Source: Acinetobacter sp. NIPH 298
GTDB taxonomy: Bacteria; Pseudomonadota; Gammaproteobacteria; Pseudomonadales; Moraxellaceae
Length of the DNA: 64,000 bases
Direction: 5' to 3'
NCBI RefSeq assembly: GCF_000369505.1
Contig: NZ_KB850055.1
Span: forward strand, 124,001 to 188,000
The notes under the pieces: generated by a model
Database searches by the model: none
What the model saw: only the letters and a program-made list of their open reading frames with translations
What the model was told of the DNA's origin: nothing
Translations under genes and position numbers: made by a program
Shown here: piece after piece, positions 29,651 through 62,448 of the stretch
Layout of the letters: every line of letters begins with the position of its first letter
Position numbering within the stretch: position 1 is the first letter of the stretch

Positions 29651-29809
29651 CTACCAAACACCTTTATTCAATTGTTGTTTGGCTTGTTGACGATCGCGAC
29701 GGTGTTGTGCGCGTGGCTTTTCTGTTTCGTGAATCCCTCCTTTCTTTAGTAAAGGGGACAAAGCTACAGGATTGCGAACTTTGATTTTTGGCATCTCTTT
29801 CAGTTTCAT
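29651..29809 (-). CDS. Small basic protein downstream of rtcB
   Basis: A 52-residue frame begins at ATG 29809, four bases after the rtcB stop, and ends at 29651. The product starts MKLKEMPKIKVRNPVALSPL and is strongly basic, with KKGGIHE in the middle and RAQHRRDRQQAKQQL near the end, then NKGVW. The basic helical tail suggests RNA or ribosome contact, which is inference. The tight spacing suggests a shared mRNA with rtcB. I do not recall a named family. Two overlapping plus-strand frames here are less likely to be genes. Confidence 0.68.
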   Translation of the reverse strand: MKLKEMPKIKVRNPVALSPLLKKGGIHETEKPRAQHRRDRQQAKQQLNKGVW

Positions 29810-31019: not shown

Positions 31020-31046
31020 TTTCTTATCTCGGTCATTTTATTTTTT

Positions 31047-31104
31047 TGTCCGAATAGGCATAAAAAAACCTAGCGAATGCTAGGTTTAAATAGACATTCG
31101 GACA
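31047..31104 (-). promoter_or_regulatory. Long-range inverted repeat enclosing leader terminator
   Basis: TTGTCCGAAT at 31047-31056 pairs with ATTCGGACAA at 31095-31104. The pairing encloses the terminator hairpin. Its outer arm overlaps the 3' arm of the upstream hairpin GGACAAGTG/CACTTGTCC (31100-31132), so these two pairings compete. This gives an RNA switch-like layout. Confidence 0.6.
31062..31087 (-). terminator. Terminator in rtcB leader
   Basis: On the minus strand AAACCTAGC and GCTAGGTTT pair around ATTC and a run of T follows. It lies between the permease gene and rtcB and about 45 bases ahead of the rtcB start, so it would truncate the leader transcript before rtcB. Confidence 0.8.
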
Positions 31105-31132
31105 AGTGATCATGAAGATTCACCACTTGTCC
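31100..31132 (-). ncRNA. Hairpin of rtcB leader transcript
   Basis: GGACAAGTG and CACTTGTCC form a perfect 9-bp stem with a 15-base loop, between the nine-codon frame and the terminator. Together with the promoter and terminator it could define a short stable RNA of about 150 bases, or the 5' leader of rtcB. Confidence 0.5.
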
Positions 31133-31153
31133 GTGAGGTGACAGTGCCAAATC

Positions 31154-31183
31154 TTACAATGTGTTTCCTAGTTGTAATGGCAT
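31154..31183 (-). CDS. Nine-codon leader peptide frame upstream of rtcB
   Basis: The frame MPLQLGNTL begins at ATG 31183 with a near-perfect ribosome site AGGAGG (31191-31196) spaced seven bases away, and ends with TAA. It is far too short for a normal gene but the ribosome site is among the best in the window. It sits downstream of a promoter-like pair and upstream of hairpins and a terminator, as in leader-peptide attenuators. The peptide has no run of a single amino acid of the kind seen in biosynthetic attenuators, so translation itself or the peptide may be sensed. Confidence 0.5.
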   Translation of the reverse strand: MPLQLGNTL

Positions 31184-31213
31184 ATGTCGTCCTCCTATAT
31201 AATAGTGCCGTTG

Positions 31214-31256
31214 AAAATATGAGCAGAGATTCTACTCATATTTTGTGTTCAGTCAA
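31214..31256 (-). promoter_or_regulatory. Promoter with overlapping 10-bp dyad, rtcB leader
   Basis: On the minus strand TTGACT (31256-31251) and TAGAAT (31234-31229) are 16 bases apart, a good sigma-70 promoter. AAAATATGAG and CTCATATTTT form a perfect 10-bp inverted repeat over 31214-31244, covering the -10 box. It could be an operator. Alternatively the stem and following T's terminate the permease transcript just upstream. Confidence 0.6.
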
Positions 31257-31271
31257 GTATAAATCAATGAT

Positions 31272-32729
31272 TTATTCACCTGCTTTCACATTCATATCTT
31301 TATAAGCGATTAACTTGCTTTTATGTTTCCACTTATAACCGAGCCAGATTGCCAAAAATAGAGGAATACTGATATAGGTGGATAAAACTCCAAGCCAATC
31401 AATTTTTCCACCGAGCACGGCCTCATAGTTTTGACCAAGGATGATGATTGAGCAAAGAATAAATGCAAACCACGGTGCAAATGGGAAGAACTTGGCGCGA
31501 TAGGCGAGGTCTTCCAGCTTGTAGCCTTGTAAAATATATCCTTTACGGAAACGATAGTGTGAAATCGCAATCCCTAACCAGACAATAAAGCCACACATGC
31601 CTGACATATTGAGCAACCAGTTAAAAACCTGCTTTTCGCCCATAAAGGTTGTCAAAAAACATAATGCAGCAACGGCAGTTGTCGCATAGAGTGCATTCAT
31701 CGGTACGCCACGACGATCAAGTTTGGAGAAGAGTTTAGGCGCTCTTCCTTCACGTGCCATATTCCATAACATACGAGTCGAAGAATACATGCCTGAGTTG
31801 CCAGCAGACAAAATCGCACTGAGAATGACCGCATTCATCAAACTGGCTGCAAAAGCAAAGCCTGCTTTTTCATACAGTAAGGTGAAAGGTGACAACGCAA
31901 TATCTTCACTTGCAGCAGCTTTTAATAGCATTGGATCATCGTAACTGACCAGTGTACCAATGATGAAAATACATAGAATATAGAATAAGAGGATACGCCA
32001 AAAAATCTGTTTGATTGCCAAAGGAATTGTTTTCTTCGGATCTTTTGATTCACCCGCAGCGACCCCGACCATTTCTGTACCTTGGAAAGAGAATCCCGCA
32101 ATCATTGCTACACCAATCATGGCTTGCAGACCACCTACAAAGGGCGCGTCTTGATAGGTCCAATTGGAAAAAGCAGCAACATTTGGCGTGAGCATGATTT
32201 TAACAATCATGGCAATACCAATGATAATAAAGACGATGATTGCAATCACTTTGATCATGGAGAACCAGAACTCGCTCTCACCAAAGCCTTTAACTGTTAA
32301 CGAGTTGATCCCAAAAATAATCGCAAGGAAAATCGCACTCCAGTAAAAACCAGGAAGATCTGGGAACCAAAATTTCATGATGAATTGTACAGCGACAAGT
32401 TCAAAAGCAACGGTAATGGCCCAGTTATACCAATAATTCCAACCTAAGGCGAAACCAAAGCCATGCTCAACATAACGACTACCATAAGTGAAAAATGCAC
32501 CTGATGTTGGGGTGTGTGTTGCCAATTCGCCTAAACTGGTCATCAAGAAATAAATCATCAGACCAATCAATGCATAGGCCAGCAATGCACCACCAGGGCC
32601 AGCATTTGCAATGGTAGAGCCTGAAGCAAGGAATAAGCCAGTACCAATTGATCCACCAATGGCAATCATATTGAGGTGGCGAGCGCCGAGCTTACGCTGA
32701 AGGTGTTGGGGAGCAGATGTATCGCTCAT
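31272..32729 (-). CDS. LysP-like basic amino acid permease (APC family)
   Basis: This 485-residue, 12-helix inner-membrane permease begins with the AAT-family signature ARHLNMIAIGGSIGTGLFLA and LGELATHTPTSGAF. The run GFALGWNYWYNWAITVAFELVA and FGESEFWFSMIKVIAIIVF follows E. coli LysP closely, so lysine or a related amino acid is the likely substrate; this is by similarity from memory. Transport is proton-driven. It precedes rtcB on the same strand but the leader promoter and terminator lie between, so the genes are likely separate units. The start is ATG, with GGAATTTTT before it. The upstream gene rsmC ends nine bases away, so it may be transcribed from rsmC. Confidence 0.9.
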   Translation of the reverse strand: MSDTSAPQHLQRKLGARHLNMIAIGGSIGTGLFLASGSTIANAGPGGALLAYALIGLMIYFLMTSLGELATHTPTSGAFFTYGSRYVEHGFGFALGWNYWYNWAITVAFELVAVQFIMKFWFPDLPGFYWSAIFLAIIFGINSLTVKGFGESEFWFSMIKVIAIIVFIIIGIAMIVKIMLTPNVAAFSNWTYQDAPFVGGLQAMIGVAMIAGFSFQGTEMVGVAAGESKDPKKTIPLAIKQIFWRILLFYILCIFIIGTLVSYDDPMLLKAAASEDIALSPFTLLYEKAGFAFAASLMNAVILSAILSAGNSGMYSSTRMLWNMAREGRAPKLFSKLDRRGVPMNALYATTAVAALCFLTTFMGEKQVFNWLLNMSGMCGFIVWLGIAISHYRFRKGYILQGYKLEDLAYRAKFFPFAPWFAFILCSIIILGQNYEAVLGGKIDWLGVLSTYISIPLFLAIWLGYKWKHKSKLIAYKDMNVKAGE

Positions 32730-61192: not shown

Positions 61193-61207
61193 TTGTCTAT
61201 GTTGTTA

Positions 61208-62448
<1,241 letters not shown>

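Follow-up and report, generated by a model that had tools for sequence, protein, structure and literature searches.

Introduction

Attenuation of an RtcB-family gene by stalled ribosomes has been described in Pseudomonas aeruginosa, where the leader peptide PA5471.1 controls armZ (PA5471), encoding an RtcB-like protein (PMC12057347, PMC3516279, PMC13041342). In these reports a constitutively transcribed leader ORF of 13 aa lies ~250 bp upstream of the gene, its full translation leads to a terminator and a stalled ribosome to read-through, competing RNA segments have been proposed, and induction by ribosome-targeting drugs is known. The target, ArmZ, is described as a MexZ anti-repressor encoded next to prfH. 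Another stress-responsive control of an rtcB gene is reported from enterobacteria, in which the activator RtcR and sigma-54 control rtcBA (PMC3224125).

The RNA family considered here, AbsR28, was detected in A. baumannii by Northern blot and RACE as a species of ~180 nt, at a similar level through growth (PMC3976366), and is present in the RNA-seq annotation of AB5075 (PMC5320573). A 2024 study describes the same RNA, in the same place, as a trans-acting, Mn2+-dependent sRNA that binds Mn2+ (reported KD near 6 uM, with altered lead cleavage), uses nucleotides 27-55 to pair with the tssM mRNA, and acts as a repressor of type VI secretion (T6SS). Deletion of absR28 raised T6SS genes, the base pairing with tssM was tested by compensatory mutation, and the transcript of the downstream gene A1S_2839 was unchanged in the deletion (PMC11796373). 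The words rtcB, open reading frame (ORF), peptide and terminator are absent from the main text of this mBio paper, and a mention of rtcB was not found in the main texts across part of the AbsR28 literature. Titles and abstract starts of the open-licence papers retrieved on rtcB leaders and attenuation likewise yielded no description of an rtcB leader.

Comparative evidence now makes it probable that the AbsR28 RNA standing before rtcB is a ribosome-sensing transcription attenuator. Judged by description and not by sequence, the closest known system is PA5471.1-armZ, with which the locus shares a short leader ORF ahead of an RtcB-family gene and the same proposed logic of termination and read-through. 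What is new here is the linkage to rtcB, the conservation of the mini-ORF, the competing arms and the presence of leaders of the same plan in other genera; AbsR28 itself and attenuation of the PA5471.1 type were known.

The leader of rtcB is the AbsR28 RNA

The window, a stretch of 64,000 nucleotides from Acinetobacter sp. NIPH 298, carries an element that matches AbsR28 (RF02606) over its full length, 1-180, with 110.8 bits against a gathering cut-off of 50 (Rfam). The leader had thus already been catalogued as an Acinetobacter sRNA located between an amino-acid permease gene and rtcB. All features named by the first-pass annotation (promoter, dyad, AGGAGG, nine-codon frame, hairpin, T-run terminator and long-range pair) were located on the minus strand (Table 1), although the hairpin CGGACAAGTG/CACTTGTCCG proved longer than the 9 bp given, and the long-range pair TTGTCCGAAT/ATTCGGACAA, while present, does not hold as a switch. 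Its ATTCGGACAA arm is 3' of the terminator and for that reason is unable itself to decide termination. The most informative pairing, which that annotation had missed, is that of arm 2 with either the Shine-Dalgarno (SD) and start region or the following hairpin, at its 5' arm and loop. The leader strand folded at -58.9 kcal/mol, where shuffles gave -37.3 +/- 3.9 (z -5.5), and the terminator scan found one terminator with 0.1 expected. The promoter scan found one site against 2.2 expected, and by itself the promoter is therefore within chance.

Table 1. Positions of the rtcB leader and its neighbouring genes in the window
Feature	Position	Strand	Evidence or remark
Sigma-70-type promoter of leader, TTGACT-16-TAGAAT	31229..31256	minus	Sequence and promoter scan
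Perfect 10-bp dyad AAAATATGAG/CTCATATTTT around -10	31244-31235 and 31223-31214		Possible operator
AbsR28 RNA, Rfam RF02606	31045..31220	minus	110.8 bits
Shine-Dalgarno AGGAGG of mini-ORF	31196-31191	minus	Equivalent of published AbsR28 'seed' A27-A30
Arm 1 (SD and start codon), partner of arm 2 (1:2, P1)	31178..31194	minus	Swap test, duplex energy
Mini-ORF MPLQLGNTL, nine codons and stop	31183-31154	minus	Sequence; frame and length conservation
Arm 2, starting at stop codon; partner arm 1 or arm 3	31135..31156	minus	Swap tests
Arm 3 (5' arm and loop side of hairpin P2)	31115..31133	minus	2:3 and 3:4 swap tests
Hairpin CGGACAAGTG/CACTTGTCCG	31133-31124 with 31108-31099	minus	Sequence
Arm 4 (CACTTGTCCG) and tail GAATG, complementary to terminator loop	31095..31108	minus	Antiterminator candidate
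Intrinsic terminator; with T run (seven T)	31087-31066; 31062..31087	minus	Terminator scan
Long-range pair TTGTCCGAAT/ATTCGGACAA	31105-31096 with 31055-31046	minus	Sequence
Arm C (ATTCGGACAA), second partner of arm 4, in rtcB 5' UTR	31046..31055	minus	Watson-Crick run, shuffles
rtcB, RNA ligase, 401 aa	29814..31019	minus	Pfam PF01139, 424 bits
Gene of 52-aa basic protein, second in operon	29651..29809	minus	Sequence; homologues
Amino-acid permease gene, other flank of leader	31272-32729		PF00324

Three features of a PA5471.1-type attenuator can be found in the AbsR28 leader: an ORF with an SD in the sequence, a terminator (69/69 loci) and, according to swap tests, mutually exclusive arms. It differs in that the ORF usually has nine codons, the peptide is unconstrained, the terminated RNA has been catalogued as an sRNA, and the target is an RtcB ligase followed by a 52-aa gene. 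Against the prfH-coupled family TIGR03073 the window RtcB scored 155.1 bits, below the cut-off of 271.8; ArmZ is presumably a member of that family. The proposal of an attenuator or discrete short RNA in the first-pass annotation is well supported for the former by comparative evidence, and the latter holds through the ~180-nt RNA of A. baumannii (PMC3976366). Its description as a new mode of RtcB control was too strong, as attenuation is known from PA5471.1-armZ and the RNA was already in Rfam.

The leader is linked to the rtcB operon across Acinetobacter

To place the locus among its relatives, 149 Acinetobacter genomes were searched, the window's own included. An rtcB of the window type (81-100% identity) is encoded in 69 of them, and the leader lies directly upstream in 69/69, genome counts that ignore phylogeny; the loss of conservation among relatives that had been named beforehand as grounds for rejection was thus not seen. 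A match to AbsR28 at E <= 0.001 occurred in 85/149 genomes. Those taken as leader-bearing were 70 genomes with at least 41.9 bits together with G093 (32.9 bits, full length, adjoining rtcB) and G077 (no Rfam match, leader seen by eye at L072), giving 72 Acinetobacter loci with a leader of the AbsR28 kind, that of the window among them; 14 other weak matches (26-33 bits) were left out uninspected.

Three genomes hold the leader without an intact rtcB (G076, with a remnant containing stops, G095 and G121), and in all three the second gene, for a protein of 52-54 aa, still follows the leader. This small basic gene lies behind the rtcB remnant in L044, is also present in L046, and is found at 6997-7158 in L053. 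The link between leader and rtcB is also kept in six loci where no permease was found in the fetched stretch (L048, L052, L058, L059, L064 and L072), three of which (L048, L052 and L072) have inserts between terminator and gene. The leader thus stays with the operon and not with the permease. By eye the inserts are MITE-like, both those in the terminator-rtcB gap of L048, L052 and L072 and those between arm C and rtcB in L022 and L041.

In the 110 nt before the SD, 71/72 leaders have a promoter with at least 9/12 matches, where shuffles predict 15.8. The dyad ATATGAG-N-CTCATAT, which spans the -10 (window 31214-31244), is kept in 18/72 leaders and may be an operator for some regulator. Between terminator and rtcB, a promoter-like site occurs in 7/69 loci, and the promoter scan found none there in the window. 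Whereas the enterobacterial genes depend on an activator and sigma-54, the Acinetobacter leader has a sigma-70-type promoter and an RNA leader. A sigma-54-like -24/-12 site was absent from 69/69 upstream regions of leader-linked rtcB by a simple pattern that finds just 1/20 at the second rtcB copy. Sigma-54 control of the latter was thus unconfirmed with this pattern, and it is therefore called just 'second rtcB copy'.

The mini-ORF retains its frame while its peptide varies

Parsing succeeded for 73 of 74 leaders (the 72 from Acinetobacter and L117), the exception being L118, which has an 18-codon ORF with longer spacing. The mini-ORF has exactly nine codons in 61/73 leaders and 7-17 in the others, starts with ATG in 71 and GTG in two, and ends in TAA (64), TGA (6) or TAG (3). 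The distance from the stop codon to arm 3 had a standard deviation of 1.7 nt in frame, whereas the two remaining frames gave 9.5 and 10.8 nt. The encoded peptides comprise 53 different sequences among the 73 leaders, and nearest pairs differ by 25 synonymous and 58 non-synonymous changes, that is 30% synonymous against 26% expected without selection. On this comparison the start, stop and frame of the mini-ORF are conserved and its peptide is unconstrained. The kept feature would therefore be a ribosome starting and ending there, not the peptide.

This bears directly on the suggestion, also made in the first-pass annotation, that the RNA is a small-peptide gene whose mini-ORF makes a functional peptide. 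Such a gene would account for an ORF that is intact in 73 of the 74 leaders parsed and mostly preceded by a strong SD, but it is length that is kept and not sequence, and with no constraint on the amino acids a functional peptide was rejected as scarcely credible.

In locus L001 the sequence AGGA is found only at the SD (positions 27 and 30). On the strength of this single occurrence, A27-A30, the published seed, is identified with the SD of the mini-ORF, and the published seed mutant therefore also loses the SD. The Mn2+-binding positions given in the same study (A76A77, U84U85, U89 and A91U94A95; PMC11796373) do not fit the L001 numbering that places AGGA at 27-30.

If AbsR28 were solely a trans-acting sRNA on tssM and type VI secretion, its place before rtcB would be neutral synteny. 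The discrete RNA seen by Northern blot and RACE, the rise of T6SS genes on deletion, the compensatory mutation in the tssM pairing and the unchanged downstream transcript, as far as these are described in the published reports, agree with a role confined to trans. Against it, TssM was not found in 24/72 leader-bearing genomes by one HMM search, in which misses are possible, and its presence is unlinked to that of the leader across genomes (Fisher p 0.40), whereas the leader accompanies every window-type rtcB. T6SS was thus discarded as the conserved reason for AbsR28. A role in trans also does not call for a seed that is the SD of a conserved mini-ORF, and leaves aside the conserved start, stop, frame and competing arms as well as the unrelated leaders of the same plan before rtcB in other genera. 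A solely trans-acting AbsR28 is accordingly considered unlikely.

RtcB is a manganese-dependent ligase, and the leader might conceivably sense manganese on behalf of rtcB instead of ribosomes. The reported affinity of AbsR28 for Mn2+ and its changed lead cleavage would suit such an element. It would, however, leave unexplained the conserved SD, mini-ORF and stop as well as the induction by tigecycline, and distant leaders share the ORF plan with a different sequence, making a manganese sensor highly improbable.

Swap tests point to two competing partners of arm 2

Pairing between arms was assessed by comparing the energy of each leader's own pair with that of arms swapped between species, relatedness being handled by removing identical pairs alone. 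Arm 2 paired with the SD and start region (1:2) at -17.53 kcal/mol in its own leader and -14.06 when swapped, and 0/2000 permutations were as good. For 2:3 the values were -14.33 own and -10.81 swapped (0/5000), a result that held with one leader per distinct arm 2 (31 cases; 0/5000), and a test restricted to the hairpin loop and the 12 nt at the start of arm 2 gave -6.63 own and -4.44 swapped (0/5000). The 3:4 pairing scored -16.80 kcal/mol own and -13.29 swapped (0/2000). The covariation of stems in other Acinetobacter, proposed earlier as a check, was thus seen for 1:2, 2:3 and 3:4. By these tests arm 2 covaries with two mutually exclusive partners, arms 1 and 3, as the logic of an attenuator would have it. 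In the window the three energies are near equal, at -17.0 (1:2), -16.4 (2:3) and -17.6 kcal/mol (3:4, hairpin P2).

The effect of a ribosome was modelled by holding single-stranded either the SD and start (start mask) or the stop region (stop mask), or by leaving the RNA free. In transcripts cut after the terminator loop, arm 2 formed 5.2 expected pairs with the arm 3/4 region under the start mask, against 0.06 when free and 0.02 under the stop mask. P2 was lost under the start mask in 27/69 leaders and in 0/69 in either other state, and it kept at least four pairs under the start mask in 42/69; the gain of 2:3 in the window's own leader with the start mask is small (0.8-1.9 pairs). Of free RNA, start mask and stop mask, the start mask alone, which stands for a ribosome at the start codon, is predicted to release 2:3 in these truncated transcripts. 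In 68/72 leaders the tail that follows arm 4 forms at least three expected pairs with the terminator loop (transcripts cut after the terminator loop); this pair is invariant and gave no covariation in the swap test. With the complete terminator, equilibrium folding retained the terminator under every mask in nearly all cases listed (18 leaders given). No switch was thus seen when the full leader was folded at equilibrium under the masks, only in truncated transcripts. This speaks against the attenuator model, which therefore needs folding during transcription. A terminator lies between mini-ORF and rtcB in 69/69 loci, 46-89 nt from the stop codon by the pairing of the detector described below and 54-70 nt in 65/69.

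Arm C offers arm 4 a second partner, with a Watson-Crick run of at least seven in 61/69 loci against a shuffle mean of 4.1. Control might thus be post-transcriptional, arm C and arm 4 pairing in the read-through mRNA or in trans to set the translation or stability of rtcB, with the drugs stabilising the mRNA. Arm C is kept next to rtcB after the inserts in L048, L052 and L072, and by eye arms 4 and C have changed jointly in L069, where arm 3 acquires a mismatch, both in keeping with such a pairing. However, the covariation of arm 4 with arm C is weak (98/2000 permutations) and arm C is downstream of the terminator, on which grounds TTGTCCGAAT/ATTCGGACAA was rejected as the switch, and the 252-fold induction considered below would be large for stabilisation alone. 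Post-transcriptional control in place of attenuation is thus very unlikely. A consistent loss of arm C along with rtcB was not cleanly borne out: the longest runs were 5 in L053, 7 in L046 and 6 in L044, a run as long as that of L046 occurs in 0.015 of shuffles, and L044 by eye also keeps a second copy.

Proposed attenuation and the induction of rtcB by tigecycline

In the attenuator proposed here, transcription would begin at the promoter preceding the mini-ORF and in most rounds end at the terminator, releasing AbsR28. With no ribosome present, 1:2 and 3:4 would form and transcription would terminate. A ribosome finishing at the stop codon would cover arm 2, with 3:4 forming and termination following as before. 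A ribosome arrested on or close to the start codon would instead cover arm 1 and let 2:3 form. Arm 4 with its tail could then pair with the 5' side of the terminator, and RNA polymerase would read into rtcB and the 52-aa gene. The position of the ribosome would be decisive and the peptide sequence irrelevant, and the released AbsR28 may also act in trans, as published for tssM.

Tetracycline-class drugs hold ribosomes where a short ORF begins. A hold at the start of the mini-ORF is the signal predicted by the modelled arms. In A. baumannii 6772166 the strongest induction after 30 min of tigecycline, 252-fold, was that of rtcB and of a hypothetical gene immediately behind it, which the authors of that report met with speculation on a toxin-antitoxin or tRNA-repair cause (PMC7652931). 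Induction is thus published for rtcB, and its dependence on the leader is predicted. The unchanged A1S_2839 transcript in the published absR28 deletion (PMC11796373) speaks against control by the leader. The RNA-seq reads were mapped to AB0057 (PMC7652931). In a table that gives three other ST1 strains a 1 for the rtcBA-rtcR island G51, in which rtcA follows rtcB, AB0057 has a score of 0 (PMC3224125). The A. baumannii-like genome G085 has a single rtcB match, with a 52-aa gene 4 nt behind it. Given the score of AB0057, a neighbouring gene that is hypothetical and not rtcA, and the single rtcB of G085, the copy induced 252-fold is likely the leader-linked one, although this is unproven because three other ST1 strains carry G51.

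Other responses are reported for rtcB copies left unspecified: an RtcB family gene rose 2.6-fold with minocycline in ATCC 19606 (PMC9741440), an RtcB family protein stood at 0.40 in a trmB mutant (PMC10653896), and rtcB_2 was up in severe desiccation (PMC13130816). The main text of a paper on eravacycline (PMC7014627) does not mention rtcB.

If the attenuator reading is correct, it would supply a cause for the published 252-fold induction, alter how a published sRNA is understood, its mapped seed being a Shine-Dalgarno site, and make RNA repair a directly testable output of ribosome stalling.

In A. baylyi, five of six LB-evolved clones of the deletion strain MGD6 are reported with base substitutions in or near AbsR28 (PMC11426457). 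On the attenuator reading, such substitutions may affect the operon downstream of AbsR28.

A small basic protein is encoded behind rtcB

The 52-aa gene of the window starts 4 nt behind rtcB, a gap from which the two genes are probably co-transcribed. A basic protein of 52-60 aa with the pattern RNPVALSPLLxKGGxHExEKPxAQHRR is encoded behind rtcB in the window and in several other genera, and a protein with the KGGxH pattern follows rtcB in 46/66 Acinetobacter loci with enough downstream sequence. The A. baumannii-like homologue (L203:3883-4041) had no match in Pfam or NCBIfam. A protein search returned 61 homologues, the named ones all hypothetical or uncharacterised. The locus thereby draws attention to a small, uncharacterised protein that is probably a product of the rtcB operon.

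Other genera have rtcB leaders built on the same plan

A detector was built that calls an SD, 7-20 codons, a stop and then an intrinsic terminator 40-100 nt on. It fired at 69/69 Acinetobacter rtcB loci and at 46/46 named Acinetobacter loci, which come largely from the same species as the 69. Outside the genus it fired at 19/63 rtcB loci (16/55 without near-duplicates) and found no leader at the remaining 44, including all nine of Psychrobacter. For control genes the count was 2/431, or 2/220 for those with an upstream gap of at least 200 nt; the 431 were taken from the window and the flanks of loci L073-L152, and many are orthologous among related genomes. Upstream of the second rtcB copy, which is 52-61% identical over aligned pieces, it fired at 0/13 parsed regions from 20 fetched (L202 from another genus), seven having been dropped as their gene piece was too short for tblastn.

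The leaders in other genera come from Competibacter relatives, Leucothrix, Thiotrichaceae, Kangiellaceae, Alloalcanivorax and others, with spacing and plan in common and unrelated sequence, and no Rfam family was found for the leader in the 17 non-Acinetobacter loci scanned. Inspection by eye gave a list of 22 leaders that includes ones with a weak SD missed by the detector; the latter picks an ORF other than the by-eye choice at L148, L149 and L180 and the wrong frame at L102. The pair of SD and post-stop sequence beats 95% of shuffles in 13/22 of the by-eye leaders. For 21 leaders of other genera together with that of the window, arm 2 had on average 7.7 pairs upstream and 3.6 downstream when free, the downstream mean changing to 6.0 under the start mask and 1.9 under the stop mask. 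A gain of more than two downstream pairs with the start mask was seen in 10/22 leaders, the window included.

A broader reading extends the attenuator beyond Acinetobacter. Ribosome-stall attenuators would be general in Gammaproteobacteria for RtcB and the small basic protein, having arisen or diverged in numerous lineages without common sequence, and the aborted Acinetobacter leader would double as AbsR28, reporting the stall in cis and silencing tssM in trans, hence the position of rtcB as the most tigecycline-induced gene. The chances for and against this broader reading appear about equal.

Locus L118, from Neisseriaceae bacterium ESL0693, holds a full leader and an rtcB whose product has 73% identity to RtcB, without an Rfam match to AbsR28. 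The occurrence of leader and gene together suggests transfer as a unit, and hence an apparent horizontal transfer of the leader with rtcB.

One of the two control-gene matches lies in the window itself, at 61207-62344 on the minus strand, where an SD, the short frame MYLKLEKK with its stop and a terminator 55 nt on occupy a gap of 387 nt. The region upstream of this gene is possibly another leader.
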